NCBI RefSeq assembly: GCF_003966975.1 | Contig: NZ_AP018437.1 | Coordinates: forward strand, 434,001-498,000 | Source of the DNA: Pelolinea submarina | Lineage (GTDB): Bacteria; Chloroflexota; Anaerolineae; Anaerolineales; Anaerolineaceae | Length of the DNA: 64,000 nt | Direction: 5' to 3' | Part shown: piece by piece, positions 27,892 to 38,618 of the stretch | Numbering within the stretch: position 1 is the stretch's first letter | How the letters are laid out: each line of letters starts with the position of its first letter | Notes under the pieces: generated by a model | Told to the model about the DNA's origin: nothing | The model's database searches: none | Seen by the model: the letters and a program-made list of their open reading frames with translations, nothing else | Translations under genes and position numbers: made by a program

Positions 27892-27920
27892 TTGACGGAT
27901 ATGCAATAGGTTGGTATAAC
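27892..27920 (+). promoter_or_regulatory. Promoter of the branched-chain amino acid operon
   Basis: TTGACG, a 17-base spacer, then TATAAC. Transcription would begin near 27927, giving a leader of about 295 bases before ilvD that contains the leader peptide and attenuator. Confidence 0.7.
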
Positions 27921-28016: not shown

Positions 28017-28115
28017 ATGACAGCCATACTCGCTCTATCCCTTATCGTTATTATTATTCTGGTCCTCGTACTTGTCGAGAACCAGATTTCGGTTGGGATG
28101 GAGGCAGCTAGGTGA
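28017..28115 (+). CDS. Ile/Leu/Val-rich leader peptide of the ilv-leu operon
   Basis: A 32-residue reading frame starting at ATG 28017. Residues 4-20 are almost only Ile, Leu and Val (19 residues in all are branched-chain), for example the run LIVIIILVLVLV. Such peptides act as the sensor of transcription attenuation: ribosomes stall on these codons when charged branched-chain tRNAs are scarce. It begins MTA like the enterobacterial ilvL peptide but is otherwise independent. The ribosome site upstream is weak (AAAGAAATAGAA). It is followed by a terminator and the ilvD gene. Confidence 0.8.
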   Translation: MTAILALSLIVIIILVLVLVENQISVGMEAAR

Positions 28116-28190
28116 AGAACGGTAACACTTAAAGCAGCGACTGGCAAACGTAAGCAAAGACCACCCAACAAAATTGGGCGGTCTTTTTTT
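28059..28190 (+). promoter_or_regulatory. Transcription attenuator of the ilv-leu operon
   Basis: Three alternative structures can be drawn. A pause hairpin overlaps the leader codons (28059-28085, CTGGT.CTCG with CGAG.ACCAG). GTTGGGATGG at 28092-28101 is complementary, with one bulged A, to CCACCCAAC at 28161-28169. That second segment is also the 5' arm of the terminator at 28156-28186. A ribosome stalled in the Ile/Leu/Val run would leave 28092-28101 free to trap the terminator arm and allow read-through; normal translation to the stop at 28113 would mask it and allow termination. Confidence 0.7.
28156..28190 (+). terminator. Attenuator terminator before ilvD
   Basis: AAAGACCACCCAA pairs with TTGGGCGGTCTTT (one A-C mismatch) and is followed by an uninterrupted T run. 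It lies 41 bases after the leader-peptide stop and 30 bases before ilvD. Confidence 0.85.
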
Positions 28191-28220
28191 TACTCAAAAC
28201 TACTTGGAGGAAGAACAACA

Positions 28221-29888
28221 ATGCGCTCAGATAAAGTCAAACTTGGAATCGAACGATCACCTCATCGGGCTCTGCTCAAGGCCACCGGCGTTAAAGACGC
28301 CGATATGAACAAACCCTTCATCGCGATCGTCAACTCATATACGGACATTGTGCCCGGCCATGTTCACTTGCAGGATTTCGGCAAGCGTATCAAGGACGCT
28401 GTGCGCGCCGCAGGCGGTGTGCCGTTTGAATTCAACACCATCGCGGTTGACGACGGCATCGCTATGGGACACCAAGGGATGAAGTACTCGCTGCCTTCTC
28501 GCGAATTGATCGCCGATTCTGTCGAAACTATGATGGAAGCTCACCAATTCGACGGGATGGTCTGTATCCCCAATTGCGACAAAATCGTGCCGGGAATGTT
28601 GATGGCTGCTGTAAGGCTCAACATCCCGGCGATTTTTATATCCGGCGGGCCGATGGCAGCCGGACACACCCCCGAAGGCCAGGCCATCGACCTGATTTCG
28701 GTCTTCGAAGGGCTGGGTGCCTACCAGAGCGGCAAGATTGACGCGGCTCGCTTGAAGATGCTGGAAGATAATGCCTGCCCGACTTGCGGTTCCTGCTCCG
28801 GTCTGTTCACCGCCAACAGCATGAACTGCTTGCTGGAAGTGCTCGGCATGGGCCTGCCCTTCAACGGGACAGCCCTGGCGCTCAGCGACGAACGCAATAA
28901 ACTGGCTGAGCGCGCTGCCAAAAAGATCTTCGATCTGATCGAGCGGGACATCACCCCGCGCCAGATCATCACCGCCGATGCCATTGACGACGCTTTCGCG
29001 CTGGATATGGCCATGGGCGGTTCCACCAACACCGTACTGCACACCCTGGCGGTTGCCAATGAAGCCGGCATCGAATATTCGCTCGAACGCATCAACGCCG
29101 TGGCCGACCGCATCCCGCACCTCAGCAAGGTCAGCCCCTCCGGCCCCTGGCACATCGAAGACGTGCATCGCGCCGGCGGCGTACCGGCCATCCTGGCTGA
29201 GATCGAATCGCACGGCGGCGGGCTGCATCTGGACCGCATCACGGTTACCGGCGACACCCTGCGCGCGTCCATCAGAGACGCAAAAATCCTGGACCCCGAA
29301 GTCATCCATCCTTACGAGAATGCCCATTCCGCTCACGGCGGCCTGGCTATCCTGTTTGGCAACCTGGCGCCCTGCGGCGCGGTCATCAAAGCCGCCGGCG
29401 TCAGCGACGTCATGCGTAAATTCGCCGGTCCGGCACGCATCTTTGAATCACAGGAAGACGCCCAGCGCGGCATCATGGCCGACGAAGTACAGGCCGGTGA
29501 AGTGGTGGTCATCCGCTACGAAGGCCCGCAGGGCGGTCCCGGCATGCAGGAAATGCTCACTCCAACCAGCGCCATCATGGGCATGGGTTTGGGCGATAAA
29601 GTTGCCCTCATCACCGACGGACGTTTCTCCGGCGGCACGCGCGGCGCTTGCATCGGCCACGTATCCCCCGAGGCGGCGGCCCGCGGCCCCATCGCTGCGC
29701 TGCAGAATGGCGACATGATTGAACTTGATGTTGACGCCCGCAGCTTGAATGTACGGCTGAGTGAAGAAGAGATCCAGAAACGTTTGGAAGCATTGCCGCC
29801 CTTTGAACCGCGTGTTCAAAGCCGCTGGCTGCGCCGTTATTCCAGCATGGTTACCAGTGCCGATACAGGCGCTGTGCTGAAAGTTTAG
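28221..29888 (+). CDS. ilvD: Dihydroxy-acid dehydratase
   Basis: It dehydrates 2,3-dihydroxy-isovalerate and -methylvalerate to the 2-oxo acids of valine and isoleucine. The product has 555 residues, the usual length. The iron-sulfur cluster cysteines lie in [13 protein letters not shown] and [37 protein letters not shown] near the C-terminus is the second family signature. GGAGGAAGAA precedes the ATG. It is the first structural gene of the ten-gene operon and stands directly behind the attenuator. Confidence 0.97.
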
Positions 29889-29939: not shown

Positions 29940-31643
29940 ATGAAAGTTACTGGTGCAGAAATATTTTGGAGATGTTTAGAATACGAGAAGGTCAAGGTCG
30001 TTTTCGGCTACCCCGGCGGCACAACGCTGCCGATCTATGACGCCCTGGTCGAAAGCCCCGTCCATCACGTATTGACCCGTCACGAGCAGGGCGCAGCCCA
30101 CATGGCGGACGGTTATGCGCGCGCTTCGGGTGAAGTGGGTGTGGCTATGGCCACCTCCGGCCCGGGCGCCACCAACCTGATTACCGGTATTGCCAACGCT
30201 CTGATGGATTCCGTTCCGATCGTGTGTATTACCGGACAGGTAGCCAGCCCGTTCATCGGTTACGATGCCTTTCAGGAGACGGACGTGACCGGCATTACCT
30301 TGCCGATCACCAAGCATAATTATCTGGTGACTGATCCTTATCAGATTGCGCCGACCATTAAGGAAGCCTTTTTCATCGCGCGTTCCGGCCGGCCGGGCCC
30401 GGTATTGATCGATATCACCAAAGACGCCCAGCAGGCTGAAATTGATTGGGAATACGACAGCAGCCCGGTACAGCTTACCGGATACCGCCCCGACCTCAGT
30501 CCCATGCCGGCCGATCTGAAAGCTGCGGTGGATTTGATTCAGAATGCCCAGCGTCCGGTCATCCTGGCCGGCCATGGTATTTTGATCAGCGGTGCCATGG
30601 AAGAGGTGCTCGAATTTGCCGAACGCACGCAAACCCCGGTTGCCAGCACGCTGTTAGGCTTGAGCGCTTTCCCCGGCACGCACCCGTTGTCCCTGGGCAT
30701 GATGGGCATGCACGGCGAAGCCTGGGTCAACCAAACTATCCAGGAAGCCGATCTGCTGTTGGCTTTTGGTATGCGTTTCGACGACCGTGTCACCGGCAAG
30801 CTTTCCCATTTTGCGCCCAAGGCGCACAAGATCCACATCGAGATTGATCCCTCCGAGATCAACAAGAACATTCCGGTGGATATTGCCCTGGTTGGCGACC
30901 TCAAGGAAACTCTCCAGAAGATTCTGCCTTCAGTGAAACCTGTCACGCATGACGACTGGCTGAATACCATCCAGGAATGGAAGGGCGACAGCTCTGTGCG
31001 CGATATCCAAAACCTGCCGGATAGCGGCCACTTGTACGCGGCTCACGTGGTCAATGACCTGTGGCGTGCGACTAATGGCGAGGCTTTGATTGTTTCAGAC
31101 GTAGGCCAAAACCAGATGTGGACAGCCCAATACTATCGCCATGACAAACCCTACACCGTCATTACGTCCGGCGGCTTGGGTACCATGGGTTTCGGTTTGC
31201 CCGCGGCCATCGGCGCTAAGTTCGCTCGGCCGGACATGGAAGTCTGGGCGATTGCCGGAGACGGTGGTTTCCAGATGACCCAGGCCGAGTTGTCCACGTT
31301 GGCCCAGGAAGGCATCAAAATCAATGTTGCCATCCTCAATAACGGCTACCTGGGCATGGTGCGCCAGTGGCAGGAATTTTTCTATGACAAACGCTATTCC
31401 GCCACGCCCATGAAAAGCCCCGATTTTGTCAAAATCGCTGAAGCGCACGGCCTGACCGGCTTGCGCGTCACCCGCCGCGATGAGGTCATGGATGCCATCC
31501 ACACCGCGCAAAATACCCCCGGCACCGTAGTGATCGATTTCCGTGTGGAAAAGGAGGACAGCGTTTACCCCATGGTGCCCAGCGGTGCAGCTATCGACAA
31601 GATGATCCGCCGCCCGGTACCGCAGTCCGTGGGAAATAAATAG
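29940..31643 (+). CDS. ilvB: Acetolactate synthase large subunit
   Basis: A thiamine-diphosphate enzyme of 567 residues that condenses pyruvate with pyruvate or 2-oxobutyrate, the shared first step of valine/leucine and isoleucine synthesis. Glu49 in RHEQGAAHMADGYAR activates the cofactor; GDGGFQMTQAELSTL with the following NN is the Mg-ThDP motif near residues 440-470. AAGGAGAAGAAGAGGAG lies upstream. Its small subunit follows immediately. Confidence 0.96.
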   Translation: MKVTGAEIFWRCLEYEKVKVVFGYPGGTTLPIYDALVESPVHHVLTRHEQGAAHMADGYARASGEVGVAMATSGPGATNLITGIANALMDSVPIVCITGQVASPFIGYDAFQETDVTGITLPITKHNYLVTDPYQIAPTIKEAFFIARSGRPGPVLIDITKDAQQAEIDWEYDSSPVQLTGYRPDLSPMPADLKAAVDLIQNAQRPVILAGHGILISGAMEEVLEFAERTQTPVASTLLGLSAFPGTHPLSLGMMGMHGEAWVNQTIQEADLLLAFGMRFDDRVTGKLSHFAPKAHKIHIEIDPSEINKNIPVDIALVGDLKETLQKILPSVKPVTHDDWLNTIQEWKGDSSVRDIQNLPDSGHLYAAHVVNDLWRATNGEALIVSDVGQNQMWTAQYYRHDKPYTVITSGGLGTMGFGLPAAIGAKFARPDMEVWAIAGDGGFQMTQAELSTLAQEGIKINVAILNNGYLGMVRQWQEFFYDKRYSATPMKSPDFVKIAEAHGLTGLRVTRRDEVMDAIHTAQNTPGTVVIDFRVEKEDSVYPMVPSGAAIDKMIRRPVPQSVGNK

Positions 31644-31676
31644 AAGAGAGAATTGCCAAAGGAACGAGGTAATCAT

Positions 31677-32222
31677 ATGCGTCATACTTTTGTAGCTTTA
31701 GTAGAAGATATTCCGGGTGTGCTGAACCGGGTGGTGTCGGTTTTCCGCCGCCGCATGTTCAACATTGAATCGCTAACCGTCAGCAATACCCACCAGCCGG
31801 GCATTTCGCGCATCACCATCGTGGTGGACAGCGACAAAACCGATGTAGATCGCATCATGCCCTATATGCATAAACTAATCAATGTTATTCAGGTGGAAGA
31901 CCTGACTTATGAGCCATGCGTCAGCCGTGATCTGGCCATGGTCAAGGTCTCCGCTCCGCCGGAGAAACGCTCGGCCATCATGCAGCTTGCGGAGGTTTTC
32001 CGCGCGCGCATTGTGGATGTGGCCAGCGACACGCTCATTATTGAGATCACCGGTGATAAGGAAAAGATCGACAGCTTTGTGGAAGTGCTGCAGCCGTACG
32101 GCATCGTTGAATTGGTGCGTACCGGTATCATCGCCATGGAACGCGGCGTCCCTAAACTGTTGAACAAAACGAACGGCAATCATAAAACTAAAATGCCGGC
32201 AGAATACGAAGTTGTTTCATAA
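31677..32222 (+). CDS. ilvN: Acetolactate synthase small (regulatory) subunit
   Basis: A 181-residue subunit with an N-terminal ACT domain (MRHTFVALVEDIPGVLNRV, RRMFNIESLTV) and the C-terminal ALS_ss_C domain (DKEKIDSFVEVLQPYGIVEL). It stimulates the large subunit and confers valine feedback inhibition. The ATG at 31677 is chosen because GAACGAGGT precedes it and the ACT domain begins at once; an earlier TTG frame at 31653 is not needed. IlvH is an equivalent name. Confidence 0.95.
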   Translation: MRHTFVALVEDIPGVLNRVVSVFRRRMFNIESLTVSNTHQPGISRITIVVDSDKTDVDRIMPYMHKLINVIQVEDLTYEPCVSRDLAMVKVSAPPEKRSAIMQLAEVFRARIVDVASDTLIIEITGDKEKIDSFVEVLQPYGIVELVRTGIIAMERGVPKLLNKTNGNHKTKMPAEYEVVS

Positions 32223-32260
32223 AAATCTAACAATACAGCAATATTTAAGGAGAAAACATA

Positions 32261-33325
32261 ATGGCAAAAATTAATTTTGGTGGTGTAGAAGAAGATGTCG
32301 TGACGCGTGAGGAGTTCCCGCTTTCCAAGGCTCAGGAAGTTCTTAAAGACGAAGTTGTCGCGGTACTTGGTTATGGTGTACAGGGCCCTGCGCAGGCTTT
32401 GAATATGCGCGATAATGGCATTAACGTGATCGTTGGCCAGCGGGAAAATTCTCACTCGTGGGACAAAGCCGTCAAGGATGGTTGGGTTCCCGGGAAAACG
32501 CTCTTCTCATTGGAAGAAGCCGCCAAACGCGGTACCGTCCTTCAATTCCTGGTCTCAGACGCCGGTCAGAAAATGACCTGGCCCACGATTAAAGCCTGCC
32601 TCAAACCCGGCGACGCGCTCTACTTCTCGCACGGTTTTGGGATCGTTTACGCCGACCAGACCGGCATTGTTGCTCCCGCGGATGTAGACGTCATCATGGT
32701 AGCCCCTAAGGGTTCCGGCACTTCCGTGCGCGCCAATTTCCTGGACGGCTCCGGCATCAACAGCAGCTACGCGGTCTATCAGGACGCCACCGGGCGTGCC
32801 ACCGAACGCACCCTGGCGCTCGGCATCGCCGTTGGCTCCGGCTACCTGTTCCCCACCACTTTCCAGAACGAAGTCTTCAGCGACCTGACCGGTGAACGCG
32901 GCGTGCTCATGGGCGCGCTGGCCGGCATCATGGAAGCCCAATACAACACCCTGCGCTCGCACGGCCACAGCCCCAGTGAAGCCTTCAACGAGACCGTGGA
33001 AGAGCTTACCCAGAGCCTTATCCGTCTGGTCAGCCAGAACGGTATGGACTGGATGTACGCCAACTGCTCCACCACCGCCCAGCGCGGCGCGTTGGACTGG
33101 CGCCACGAGTTCCGCAAAGCGACCGCGCCTGTCTTCGAAAAACTCTACCAGAGTGTCGTCGACGGTGAGGAAACGCGTATTGTGATTGAAGCCAACAGCG
33201 CACCGGATTACAAGGCGAAATTGAACACCGAGTTATCCGAAATGCGCGAGTCGGAAATGTGGGCAGCCGGCGCTGTAGTACGCTCGCTGCGCCCGGAAAA
33301 CTGGGGTAAGGAAGATGGAAAGTAA
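32261..33325 (+). CDS. ilvC: Ketol-acid reductoisomerase, eukaryote/Bacteroidetes-like form
   Basis: It converts acetolactate and acetohydroxybutyrate to dihydroxy acids with NADPH and Mg. The product has 354 residues, longer than the ~330-residue class I bacterial enzyme. The dinucleotide loop is [34 protein letters not shown] and [19 protein letters not shown] are strikingly like the yeast Ilv5 and Bacteroidetes type rather than the E. coli or B. subtilis types. It overlaps leuA by 11 bases, indicating coupled translation. Confidence 0.95.
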
Positions 33326-34940
33326 TATCGTACGTATTTTTGACACCACCCTGCGCGACGGGGAGCAATCCCCCGGCGCCACCATGACCGCCGCTGAAAA
33401 GATGGAAGTGGCGCGTGCGTTGGCGCGCATGGGCGTGGATGTCATTGAGGCCGGTTTCCCTGCGGCTTCGCCGGATGACCTGGAGGCCGTGCGGCGTATC
33501 GCATTGGAGATCGGCAATTCCGAGGATGGTTCGACCGTCCCGGTCATTTGCGGCCTGGCCCGCACCATTGAAGGTGACATCGACAAAGCCTGGGAAGCTG
33601 TGAAGGGAGCTGCGCATCCGCGCATCCACACCTTTATTGCTACCTCGGACATCCATATGAAGTACAAGCTCAAGATGGACCGCGAACAGGTGCTGGACCA
33701 GATCGCCCGCATGGTTGCGCACGCGCGCGAATTGTGCGAGGACGTGGAATTCAGTCCGGAAGACGCCGGACGCAGCGACCCCGAATTCCTCTACCAGGCC
33801 TTGGAGGTTGCCATTGAAGCCGGTGCCACCACGCTCAACATCCCCGATACGGTCGGCTATACCATGCCGGACGAGTTCGGCGCGTTGATCGCGGGCATCA
33901 TCAAGAACACCAAGGGCATTGAGAAGTGCGTTGTATCGGTGCACTGCCACAACGACCTGGGGCTGGCCACCGCCAACACCCTGGCCGGCATCCGCGCCGG
34001 AGCGCGCCAGGCGGAAGTGACCATCAACGGCATCGGCGAACGCGCCGGCAATACCGCTTTGGAAGAAGTGGTTATGGCCCTGCATGCCCGCCGCCAGGTG
34101 ATGGATCTGGGTACGAATATCGACACTACCCAGCTCACCCGCCTGAGCAAGCTGGTCAGCAACTACACCGGCATGAGTGTGCAGCCCAACAAAGCCATCG
34201 TGGGCGCCAACGCGTTTGCCCACGAGGCCGGCATCCATCAGGATGGCGTGCTCAAGAACACCCTGACCTATGAGATCATGAAGCCGGAAACCGTCGGCCT
34301 TTCCGCCAGCAAGCTGGTATTGGGCAAGCATTCCGGACGGCATGCCCTCAAGGAACGCCTGATTTCGCTCGGTTATACCCTGGACGAAGAATCTTTGAAC
34401 AAGCTCTTCGACCGCTTCAAAACCCTGGCCGATAAAAAGAAGACCATCACCGACGCGGACATCGAAGCGCTCATCTCGGATGAGATCTACCAGAATGAGG
34501 TCATCTTCACTCTGGAAGGCTTGCAGGTGGCCTGCGGCACCATGGGCCTGCCCACAGCCACGGTGCGCCTGGTCGGGCCGGACGGCGAAACGCATATTCA
34601 TGCGGCCATCGGCACCGGTCCGGTAGACGCTACTTTCAAGGCCATCGATGCCATTGTGCAGATGGACAGCACCCTGGTTGATTTTGTCATTCACGCCATT
34701 ACCGAAGGCATTGACGCGCTGGGCGAAGTGACCGTGCGCATTGCCACCAAGGACCTGCCGGCGGTGATGACAGCCCAGAAAGAAATCGAGCGCCCGTGCA
34801 CATTTGGCGGTTATGGCGCGGACACCGACATTATCGTGGCCAGCGCCAAAGCTTACCTATCGGCCATCAATAAAATGCTGGCTTCCACCGGTAAGTACGG
34901 CCCGGTTGAAACACCGGCTGTGCAGGCAGTGGCGGGTTGA
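33315..34940 (+). CDS. leuA: 2-isopropylmalate synthase
   Basis: The first committed step of leucine synthesis: acetyl-CoA plus 2-oxoisovalerate. It has 541 residues with the DRE-TIM barrel start [13 protein letters not shown], the metal-binding [20 protein letters not shown], and a C-terminal LeuA dimer domain from about residue 390 ([21 protein letters not shown]), the leucine-sensing regulatory domain. Its start lies inside the end of ilvC. The partner paralogue CimA is four genes downstream in the same operon. Confidence 0.95.
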
Positions 34941-34966
34941 GCAGCCAATCGAGGAGATATTTTAAG

Positions 34967-35005
34967 ATGCGAACAACACACCCCATGGAAGGCGGAAAGT
35001 TTTGA
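34967..35005 (+). CDS. Putative 12-residue upstream ORF coupled to leuC
   Basis: A short frame ([12 protein letters not shown]) begins 7 bases after a good ribosome site, GAGGAG, and its TGA overlaps the leuC ATG by one base (TGATG). leuC itself has only a weak site (GGCGGAAAG), so ribosomes may reach leuC by termination-reinitiation. No role for the peptide is evident. Confidence 0.4.
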
Positions 35006-36423
35006 TGGAAAAACCGCAAACCCTTTTTGAAAAGATTTGGAATGAGCATCTGGTCGCGCAGCAGCCGGATTCACCGGCCGTGCTGTACATTGACCTGCAG
35101 CTTGTTCATGAAGTCACCTCGCCGCAGGCCTTTACCGGCCTGCGCGAGCGCGGCCTAAAAGTGCGCCGCCCGGACCGCACGGTAGCCACTGTGGACCATT
35201 CCCTGCCGACCCTGTCGGCGGATGGCACTGTGGAAGGCCGTCTGGCCCTGGCGGACGACCTGGCCCGCAAACAGATTGCACAGTTGGAAGAGAACGCGCG
35301 CGAATTTGGCATTGAAAGCTTCGGCGCCGCCAGCGATCGCAATGGCATCGTGCACGTGATTGGCCCGGAACTGGGCCTGACCCAGCCCGGCATGACCATT
35401 GTGTGCGGCGACAGCCACACCTCCACCCACGGCGCATTCGGCGCGCTGGCATTCGGCATTGGCACCAGCGAAGTGGAACACGTGCTGGCTACCCAGTGCC
35501 TGCTGCAGCGCCAACCCATGACCTGCGAAGTGCGCGTGGAAGGCAGCCTGAAGAAAGGCGTGACCGCCAAGGATATCATCCTGGCCCTCATCGCCAAGAT
35601 CGGCGTGGCCGGCGGTGTGGGCTACGTGCTCGAATATACCGGCCCGGTTATCCGTGCCCTCAGCATGGAAGAGCGCATGACCGTCTGCAACATGTCGATT
35701 GAAGCGGGCGCGCGCGCCGGCTTGATCGCGCCGGACGAAACCACTTTTGAATACCTGGCTGGACGTAAGTATGCCCCCAAGGGTGCGGATTGGGACGCCG
35801 CCGTGGCGCGCTGGCGTAAATTGCCCAGCGACGAAGGCGCCAAATACGACCGCACTGTCACATTGGACGTTTCCGATCTGGAACCCATGATCACCTACGG
35901 TACCAACCCCGGTATGGGCATGCCCATCACTGCTTCCCTTCCCACGCTGGAATCAGCGTCGGATGGCGGCTTGAAGAAAGCCCTGGCTTACATGGACCTG
36001 CCCGCGGGCCAACCCCTGCTGGGTCATAAGGTTGACGTGGTCTTTATCGGCAGCTGCACCAACTCCCGCCTTTCCGACCTGCGTGAAGCCGCGCGTGTCA
36101 TGCGCGGCCGCAAGGTGGCCGAGGGTGTGCGCGTGTTGGTGGTACCCGGATCGCAGCAGATCAAACGCGACGCCGAAGCCGAAGGTCTCGACAAGGTCTT
36201 CACGGATGCGGGCGCGGAATGGCGTGAAGCTGGCTGCAGCATGTGCATTGCCATGAACGGCGACATGATCCAGCCCGGCCAATATGCCGTCAGCACCAGC
36301 AACCGCAACTTCGAAGGCCGTCAGGGCAAGGGCGGGCGTACCATGTTGGCCAGCCCGCTGACCGCCGCGGCCGCGGCCGTGACCGGCGTGGTTACCGACG
36401 TACGCACCCTGTTGGATGATTAA
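35005..36423 (+). CDS. leuC: 3-isopropylmalate dehydratase large subunit
   Basis: A 472-residue aconitase-superfamily subunit. It isomerises 2- to 3-isopropylmalate together with LeuD, and in this context probably also citramalate to methylmalate. The 4Fe-4S cysteines are visible in [13 protein letters not shown] and [33 protein letters not shown] is the substrate-binding region. ATG 35005 is preferred over TTG 35002 one codon earlier. Confidence 0.96.
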
Positions 36424-36435
36424 GGAGAGAATGAT

Positions 36436-37038
36436 ATGCAAGCATTTACCCAATTGAACTCCCGTGTCGTGGCGCTGCCGCTGGATGACATCGACACCGA
36501 CCAGATCATCCCGGCGCGTTTCCTTAAGATCACGGATAAAGCCGACCTGGCTAATCACTTGTTCAACGATTGGCGCTATAACCCGGACGGCAGCCCGCGC
36601 GCGGATTTTATTATTAACCAGCCCGAAGCGAACGATGCCCAAATCCTGTTTGCGGGCGATAATTTTGGCTGCGGTTCTTCACGCGAACATGCCCCCTGGG
36701 CGCTGGTTGGTTTCGGTTTTCGCGTGGTGATTGCCACTTCGTTTGGCGATATCTTCCGCAATAATTCTCTTAAGAACGGCCTGCTGCCCATCAAGGTCAG
36801 CCCGCAGGTGCACCAGCAGATGCGTGAAATTCTGGAAGAGAGCCCAAGAGCCGAGTGGAGCGTGGACCTGAACGAACAAAGCCTTACTATTCCCAGCGGG
36901 CTGAAAGTCAATTTTGATATTGATCCCTTCTCCAAAACCTGTTTGCTGCAAGGCAAAGATGAGTTGGGATATCTATTGTCCGTTATGGATCAGATTGTTG
37001 CTTACGAAAAAGCGCATCTAAAACAGGTGCCTGCATGA
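36436..37038 (+). CDS. leuD: 3-isopropylmalate dehydratase small subunit
   Basis: The 200-residue swivelling domain partner of LeuC. The motifs DDIDTDQIIPARFLK at residues 19-33 and NFGCGSSREHAPWAL near 75-90 are diagnostic. It starts 12 bases after leuC, preceded by AAGGAGAGA, and overlaps the cimA start by 4 bases (ATGA). Confidence 0.96.
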   Translation: MQAFTQLNSRVVALPLDDIDTDQIIPARFLKITDKADLANHLFNDWRYNPDGSPRADFIINQPEANDAQILFAGDNFGCGSSREHAPWALVGFGFRVVIATSFGDIFRNNSLKNGLLPIKVSPQVHQQMREILEESPRAEWSVDLNEQSLTIPSGLKVNFDIDPFSKTCLLQGKDELGYLLSVMDQIVAYEKAHLKQVPA

Positions 37039-38618
37039 TCCAAATTTACGACACTACCCTGCGCGATGGTACCCAACGTAAGGACATCTCGCTTTCCTGC
37101 AGCGATAAACTGCGCATTGCGCAGCGTCTGGACGAGATGGGCGTGGATTTCATCGAGGGTGGCTGGCCGGGTTCGAACCCAAAAGACGTCGAATTCTTTC
37201 AGGAAGCTGCCAAGATCCACTGGAAGCATGCGTTGATTACAGCCTTCGGTTCCACCTGCCGGGTCAACGGCGGCCCGCAGGACGACGCCAACATCCAGGC
37301 TTTGCTGGATTCCGGTACACCAGTCTGCACGGTCTTTGGCAAGTCCTGGACCTTGCACGTTGTAGATGTACTGCGCACCACCTTACCGGAAAACCTGCGC
37401 ATCATCGAACAGAGCGTGGCTTATCTGCGTGAGCAGGGCCGGCGCGTGATCTACGATGCCGAACACTTCTTCGATGGATATAAGGAAAACCCGGAATACA
37501 CGCTCGATACGCTGCGCGCGGCTGTGCGCGGCGGGGCGGAGCGTGTGGTCCTATGTGATACCAACGGCGGGGCGCTGCCGCATGAAGTCAGCGCCATCGT
37601 CAGCCAGGTGCATCAGGAACTGGATATTCCGCTGGGTATTCATGCTCATAATGACAGTGAGTGCGCGGTAGCCAACTCGTTGGCGGCCGTGCAAGCCGGC
37701 TGCACCCAGGTGCAGGGCACCATCAACGGTTATGGCGAACGCTGCGGCAATGCCAACTTATGCTCTATCATCCCCGACTTGCAGTTAAAGCTGGGTTATG
37801 AATGCCTGCCGTCGGTAAAATTGGTTGAGCTGTACGACCTGTCGCACTTTGTGGCGGAGATCGCCAACTTGGCGCCGGATGAATACCAGGCCTATGTCGG
37901 CCAGGCGGCCTTCGCCCACAAGGGCGGCGTGCACGTGTCCGCCATGCGCCGTAGCCCGTTATCCTACCAGCACATTGAACCGGAACTGGTGGGCAACGAA
38001 ATGTCGGTGGTGGTTTCCGAACTATCCGGCAAGGGCAACATCCTCAGCAAGGCTGAGGAATATGGACTGGCTGTCAACGGCAGCGAAGAGGTTGTGGAAG
38101 CGCTCAATCAAATCAAGGAATTGGAATCACAGGGCTTCTCATTTGAAGCCGCTGAAGCTTCTGCCATGCTGCTGCTCAAACGACACCAGCCCGATTATCG
38201 CGCGCCTTTTGAACTGATCGATTACTCCGTCAGCGTGGAGCATCGCCAGCAGCGCGGTATCATCACCGAGGCCATGGTCAAGGTGCGCATCGGTGAGAAG
38301 GTTATCCACACCGCGGGTGAGGGCTGCGGCCCTGTGCATGCCCTGGACGTGGCCATGCGCAAAGCGCTGGTTGACGATTTTCCCCAGATCGCGCAATTCC
38401 ACCTGACCGATTTCAAAGTGCGTATCCTCAACGGCGCGTTGGCTACCGAAGCCATCACGCGTGTGTTGATCGACACGCAAAACGGTTATCATTCCTGGAG
38501 CACGGTGGGCGCCAGCCCTAATATCATTGATGCCAGCTGGCAGGCATTGGCCGACTCAATCGAGTACGGTTTAATGACCACCACGGAAGAAGACCCGGCC
38601 GAACAAGTGGCCGCATAG
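37035..38618 (+). CDS. cimA: (R)-citramalate synthase
   Basis: It condenses acetyl-CoA and pyruvate to citramalate, opening the threonine-independent route to isoleucine. It has 527 residues. The start QIYDTTLRDGTQRKDISLS and the segment FIEGGWPGSNPKD distinguish this branch (TIGR00977 type) from LeuA; HAHNDSECAVANSLAAVQAG is the metal site and the C-terminal dimer domain starts near residue 400. It sits between leuD and leuB, whose enzymes process citramalate to 2-oxobutyrate. Confidence 0.93.
   Translation: MIQIYDTTLRDGTQRKDISLSCSDKLRIAQRLDEMGVDFIEGGWPGSNPKDVEFFQEAAKIHWKHALITAFGSTCRVNGGPQDDANIQALLDSGTPVCTVFGKSWTLHVVDVLRTTLPENLRIIEQSVAYLREQGRRVIYDAEHFFDGYKENPEYTLDTLRAAVRGGAERVVLCDTNGGALPHEVSAIVSQVHQELDIPLGIHAHNDSECAVANSLAAVQAGCTQVQGTINGYGERCGNANLCSIIPDLQLKLGYECLPSVKLVELYDLSHFVAEIANLAPDEYQAYVGQAAFAHKGGVHVSAMRRSPLSYQHIEPELVGNEMSVVVSELSGKGNILSKAEEYGLAVNGSEEVVEALNQIKELESQGFSFEAAEASAMLLLKRHQPDYRAPFELIDYSVSVEHRQQRGIITEAMVKVRIGEKVIHTAGEGCGPVHALDVAMRKALVDDFPQIAQFHLTDFKVRILNGALATEAITRVLIDTQNGYHSWSTVGASPNIIDASWQALADSIEYGLMTTTEEDPAEQVAA

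Follow-up and report, generated by a model that had tools for sequence, protein, structure and literature searches.

Background

Attenuation of ilv operons by a leader peptide is documented mainly in Proteobacteria and Actinobacteria, and Lopatovskaya et al. reportedly surveyed such attenuators across bacteria in 2010. In Escherichia coli, the leader ilvL places its operon under multivalent control by Ile, Leu and Val, and the trp attenuator of the same organism works by three alternating pairings, 1:2, 2:3 and 3:4. In the Corynebacterium ilvBNC leader (the ilvB-II motif, reported in Corynebacterium), and likewise in the ilvB-OMG motif, an upstream open reading frame (uORF) of branched-chain codons, a terminator and an antiterminator lie upstream of ilvB (PMC10272879). 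In Dehalococcoides, T-boxes were described on ileS and on trp genes (PMC2494555). As for leader-peptide attenuation in Chloroflexi, nothing relevant was found in the literature that we searched; given the cross-bacterial survey of 2010, priority for the phylum is not established.

In the present study, we analyzed a stretch of Pelolinea submarina DNA of 64 kb (hereafter the window). Judging from sequence comparison and modelling, the leader in front of ilvDBNC-leuACD-cimA is very probably a ribosome-mediated attenuator that senses charged tRNA-Ile, tRNA-Leu and tRNA-Val and controls these genes (Table 1). It resembles the leader of E. coli ilvXGMEDA in having a 32-residue peptide rich in Ile, Leu and Val, an antiterminator arm within the leader frame, and a terminator before the structural genes, although there is no clear sequence homology between the two. 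Unlike the E. coli operon, the operon in the window starts with ilvD and includes leu genes, a conserved in-frame hairpin (P1) sits between segment 1 and segment 2 of the leader, and the preferred codons are CTT/CTC, ATT and GTC/GTT. When applied to ilvL of E. coli K-12, our helix finder selected a segment within the leader as the partner of the terminator arm; the calculation showed no protector in the no-ribosome state of ilvL, and thus the procedure is not a calibrated predictor. In 5 kb of E. coli ilv sequence, the best match of the covariance model built here (R1; 133 positions, 18 pairs) was the ilvL attenuator, as a weak match (14.9 bits, E 0.018). The locus shares with the ilvB-II and ilvB-OMG motifs the uORF rich in branched-chain codons, the terminator and the antiterminator; in ilvB-II, unlike here, the antiterminator comes from the P1 loop and the pairings are laid out differently. 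With the trp attenuator it shares the 1:2, 2:3, 3:4 alternation, and it differs in the extra conserved hairpin within the 1:2 loop. No Rfam family matched in the window or in 40 related loci, nor was there an Rfam match when the window region was tested together with 20 further attenuator loci. Assignment to the Rfam family Phe_leader was rejected (17.9 bits against a gathering threshold of 55).

Table 1. Features of the ilv-leu locus, T-boxes of the same genome and tandem attenuators of related loci
Feature	Position	Strand	Basis or remark
Putative promoter TTGACG, 17-nt spacer, TATAAC	27892-27920	+	sequence
Leader peptide ORF MTAILALSLIVIIILVLVLVENQISVGMEAAR, 32 aa, 17 Ile/Leu/Val	28017-28115	+	ATG 28017, stop TGA 28113-28115
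Segment 1, protector CTCTATCCC	28033-28041	+	pairs with 28095-28103; minimum-energy folds of full and truncated transcripts
P1, candidate RNA polymerase pause hairpin, stem 28058-28068/28076-28086	28058-28086	+	fold, covariation
Segment 2, antiterminator 5' arm GTTGGGATGG, within leader ORF	28092-28101	+	pairs with 28161-28169
Intrinsic terminator, stem 28156-28168/28174-28186, T run to 28191	28156-28191	+	fold, covarying stem
Segment 3 CCACCCAAC, common to antiterminator and terminator 5' arm	28161-28169	+	pairing, covariation
ilvD, first structural gene	28221-29888	+	NCBIfam TIGR00110, 819 bits
ilvB, ilvN, ilvC, leuA, leuC, leuD, cimA	29940-38618	+	NCBIfam equivalogs; same strand, gaps short or none
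Seven T-boxes	G000:C1 1660418, 1781815, 2935198, 2784573, 80175, 1326470, 2197630		covariance model RF00230
Tandem L024	3347-3458 and 3180-3295	-	two complete attenuators in series
Tandem L159	234-339, 478-597		two complete attenuators in series
Tandem L160	214-324, 406-536		two complete attenuators in series
Tandem L179	279-402, 712-833		two complete attenuators in series
Tandem L012	upstream of ilvD		by inspection

The leader and the operon

A previous reading of the sequence alone (hereafter the sequence-only reading) had proposed that a complete attenuator precedes the ilv-leu operon. This appears to be right in essence: a promoter, a leader, an antiterminator segment and an intrinsic terminator front ilvD-ilvB-ilvN-ilvC-leuA-leuC-leuD-cimA and together would make up a complete ribosome-mediated attenuator. 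The comparison with relatives that it had suggested, for covariation and for conservation of the leader codons, was run and upheld the proposal, as the leader frame, the competing pairings and the regulatory codons are all conserved, with covariation. The 32-residue leader frame that it described was also borne out, with the correction that 17 of the 32 residues, not 19, are Ile, Leu or Val. Two elements were absent from the sequence-only reading, namely, the promoter and the protector pairing (28033-28041/28095-28103). The promoter also escaped a scan that demanded a T at position 6; an equivalent site (TTGACT-17-TATAAA) is found at the locus L002 from the same genus.

The two strands of the window together contain 394 ORFs that start with ATG and encode 20-50 aa, and none of the others is as rich in Ile, Leu and Val as the leader. 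A clear Shine-Dalgarno sequence was not found at its start. The fold energy of the leader region was better than those of all 200 dinucleotide shuffles (z -4.2). The genes that follow, including the citramalate synthase gene cimA (assigned by an NCBIfam equivalog), probably form one co-transcribed operon. In a covariance model search of the whole genome, the attenuator was the single match (E 4e-19) and no significant second copy was found, the runner-up having an E value of 0.045.

Alternative pairings and their coevolution

Both the terminator (28156-28190) and its rival pairing, between 28092-28101 and the terminator 5' arm at 28161-28169, had been claimed in the sequence-only reading, and both were confirmed, the former as a stem followed by a T run and the latter as a duplex of 9 bp with one bulged A, the two arms of which coevolve. 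In 27 leaders of the same order, the mean energy of the segment 2/segment 3 duplex was -18.6 kcal/mol for arms of the same species versus -13.5 kcal/mol for permuted arms (sd 0.54; 0 of 20,000 permutations). Over about 76 leaders from the whole phylum, the same species-swap test, which permutes the arms among species and leaves relatedness uncorrected, gave a z of -16. In the terminator stem, double changes were observed at 8 of the 10 pairs, with 95% of the cells paired (27 sequences), and pairs at positions of the terminator arm change in a compensatory way, for instance from GC to AU or CG. Covariation in the 27-leader alignment exceeded that in all 500 shuffles on four of five measures, and that in slid versions of the alignment on all five. 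RNAalifold recovered the terminator alone from the full alignment, because the alternatives are mutually exclusive and P1 slides by codons.

In the minimum-energy fold before completion of the terminator, the early codons at 28033-28041 sequester the antiterminator arm. Over 76 leaders, segment 1 preferred the antiterminator arm of its own species (z -7.5 to -7.7, 0 of 20,000 in the species-swap test), and four control segments, taken from the 5' UTR, P1 and the spacer, showed no coevolution with segment 2 in this test (z -0.2 to 1.9). Since the control segments come from the same genomes, relatedness is an unlikely cause of the protector signal. On the evidence of these sequences, the protector would supply a 1:2 pairing of the trp type, yielding the 1:2/2:3/3:4 logic.

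The hairpin P1 showed double changes at 7 of 8 pairs (27 sequences), and its arms coevolve (-11.0 for own arms versus -7.2 for permuted arms, 0 of 20,000 in the species-swap test), though the 5' arm slides along the codons. The pause hairpin placed at 28059-28085 in the sequence-only reading is thus present, at 28058-28086, and conserved, but it does not compete with the antiterminator, which is the part of the protector. As a candidate for the competing 1:2 arm, P1 was rejected; it ends before segment 2 and shows no coevolution with it (z 0.1).

Ribosome stalling and the proposed switch

We infer the direction of the response to scarcity of Ile, Leu and Val as follows. Without a ribosome, 28033-28041 would pair with 28095-28103, the terminator arm would be left free, and the terminator would form. 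Under shortage of even one of these amino acids, a ribosome would stall on the codons from about 28026 to 28062 and remove the protector, whereupon segments 2 and 3 could pair before the terminator 3' arm exists, resulting in read-through. With all three in ample supply, the ribosome would proceed over segment 2 to the stop codon at 28113 and the terminator would form. A probable role of P1 is to hold RNA polymerase in a pause that lets the ribosome keep in step.

The effect of the ribosome was modelled by blocking a footprint of -18 to +12 around the A-site on transcripts truncated ahead of the terminator 3' arm. For 76 leaders, the modelled median probability of the antiterminator was 0.00 without a ribosome, 0.74 with a ribosome stalled on Ile/Leu/Val codons, and 0.00 with a ribosome at the stop codon; it was higher in the stalled than in the no-ribosome state in 71 of them. 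The positions of the codons follow the same geometry. At A-sites from 53 to 18 nt before segment 2, Ile, Leu and Val account for 73-84% of codons; closer in, from 17 nt, their share is about 25%, and at this distance a ribosome would start to overlap the arm; the modelled probability is down to 0.1 at A-sites 6-11 nt from the arm. In the leader of the window itself, it is 0.8-1.0 when the stall lies anywhere between Ile 28026 and Val 28062, and about 0 beyond; at the final four Ile/Leu/Val codons of the run, the protector re-forms around the ribosome in the model and antitermination does not occur. In the full transcript at equilibrium, the terminator is favoured and the antiterminator is negligible in every ribosome state; therefore, the switch must be kinetic and decided during transcription. 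Known attenuators likewise decide during transcription.

The leaders also differ from the ilv genes of the same loci in codon choice: CTT makes up 37% versus 6% of Leu codons (6-fold enrichment) and ATT 71% versus 28% of Ile codons (2.6-fold), CTC and GTC/GTT are favoured as well, and CTG, GTG and ATC are avoided. One known source of such a bias in the leaders of attenuators is that isoacceptor tRNAs are charged selectively (PMC1183508). An alternative possibility is that pyrimidine-rich codons are needed for pairing with the G-rich antiterminator arm.

Strong covariation of both structures could also be expected of a translation-independent RNA switch, in which a small molecule or an RNA-binding protein picks the structure and the ORF is incidental, and ppGpp-sensing riboswitches do control ilvB genes in some bacteria (PMC10272879). 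However, the Ile/Leu/Val-rich frame is kept in most of the 87 matched loci while the peptide sequence drifts, the placement of its codons fits the ribosome geometry, and neither a conserved unpaired ligand-binding core in the alignment nor an Rfam match was seen; we thus consider such a switch very improbable. Even less probable is that the leader peptide is itself functional, as a small hydrophobic peptide of the membrane, and that the terminator merely ends the ORF's own transcript. Small peptides of the membrane are indeed common and the sequence is highly hydrophobic, but the length and C-terminal sequence of the leader vary freely among the 87 loci, its stop codon may precede segment 2, codons of the leader itself and the terminator arm coevolve, and the recurrent Glu-Asn/Ser motif is accounted for by the arm of the P1 hairpin. 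Short hydrophobic frames arise randomly, yet a constitutive terminator preceded by chance by an Ile/Leu/Val-rich frame can practically be dismissed, as the comparative data already contradict it: more than 100 genomes conserve the arrangement, the downstream genes that were read belong mostly to branched-chain amino acid metabolism, the frame ranks top of the 394 short ORFs, and the alternative pairings coevolve.

Ribosome-mediated attenuation, the explanation that we prefer, would be a known mechanism, and all of the sequence-level features of classic attenuation that we tested are present: a short leader ORF with many codons for the amino acids that the operon makes, an intrinsic terminator between the leader and the first structural gene, a mutually exclusive antiterminator using the terminator 5' arm, a protector (1:2) pairing without translation and, with modelled footprints on 76 leaders, stall positions that free and stop positions that cover the antiterminator arm.

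Coexistence with T-boxes

The sequence-only reading had presented the attenuator as standing where T-boxes or repressors might be expected instead. This opposition did not hold, as both systems coexist: seven T-box matches were found in the same genome, before ileS, leuS, valS, thrS, pheS, serS and a trpB-like gene. Two of them score above the Rfam cut-off; because the other five, each before a fitting gene, score below it, Rfam may under-call T-boxes in this group. T-box matches were present in all of the 61 genomes searched, that is, this genome and its relatives. The model RF00230, which recognises the T-box sequence, the specifier loop and the antiterminator bulge and finds the seven T-boxes elsewhere in the genome, has no match in the window, and T-box identity was rejected for the leader by this measure. 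T-box leaders, like the attenuator, sense uncharged tRNA and switch a terminator; unlike it, they read the tRNA directly without translation, and here they are located before aminoacyl-tRNA synthetase genes and the trpB-like gene, not before the ilv operon. With T-boxes on ileS, leuS and valS and the attenuator on the ilv operon, charging of the tRNAs for Ile, Leu and Val therefore appears to be read in two ways, through T-boxes where synthetases are concerned and through stalled ribosomes where biosynthesis is. This suggests a division of labour, in which synthetase genes use one tRNA-sensing system and biosynthesis genes another, and not a mutual exclusion of the two.

Distribution and tandem copies

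We located ilvD in 33 of the 61 relatives searched. Most same-order loci with upstream DNA have an Ile/Leu/Val-rich leader of about 30-40 aa followed by a terminator, as does an Anaerolineae MAG (L031), whose IlvD (72% identity) represents the closest named IlvD locus among the matches listed. The scan of named relatives, in which the matches listed were mainly from other phyla, was used for this MAG and for outgroups. The 27 same-order leaders align with a mean column identity of 48%. Model R1 matched in 138 of 298 genomes of the class, representing 98 of 187 genera (E ≤0.01), and in 48 of 400 genomes of a phylum sample, 14 of them outside the class (E ≤0.001).

Of the 60 loci that were read, roughly 40 have ilvD or ilvB downstream. 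Other downstream genes encode class IV aminotransferases (ilvE-like, two cases), an HMGL-type synthase (leuA-like), a divergent TPP enzyme and a periplasmic ligand-binding protein (ABC binding protein); the binding-protein, ilvE-like and leuA-like cases are L156, L157, L158 and L167. These neighbours are consistent with a role in branched-chain amino acid metabolism. Some attenuators have other neighbours, such as a rubrerythrin family gene at L166. In about five lineages, two complete attenuators were found in tandem, and each unit of a pair has a separate leader, an antiterminator arm and a terminator that matches it.

The phylum-wide occurrence, the protector helix and the tandem copies appear to be undescribed in the literature that we searched, and the contribution of the present study lies in these, namely the breadth within the phylum, the protector helix and the tandem copies, together with the coexistence with T-boxes. 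We tentatively suggest, with rather less than even confidence, that the attenuators constitute an uncatalogued, phylum-wide class, that one lineage reads three charged tRNAs in two ways (by T-boxes for ileS, leuS and valS, and by stalling for the biosynthetic operon), and that in several lineages a pair of consecutive complete attenuators makes the response steeper or combines it. The Chloroflexota-type loci, with covariation in all competing arms and T-boxes in coexistence, provide abundant natural material from which the rules of such switches (stall window, codon choice and protector strength) could be worked out, and model R1 could become an Rfam family.

Some loci (L003:1356, L015:1265, L030:1145, + strand, and L005) contain a small ORF of 42-76 aa between the attenuator and ilvD; it has a recurrent C-terminus, W...A..D.YN, and no Pfam match. 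Ile/Leu/Val leader and terminator candidates were also observed upstream of ilvD at L079 (labelled Gemmatimonadetes) and L041 (unclassified bacterium). Loci of a Desulfobacterota type (L082, L086, L098, L107 and L110) have their own Ile/Leu/Val leaders upstream of ilvD, with a different terminator consensus, CCGTTATCA...TGATAACGG, which pairs with GGGG-TGATAA-like leader segments.
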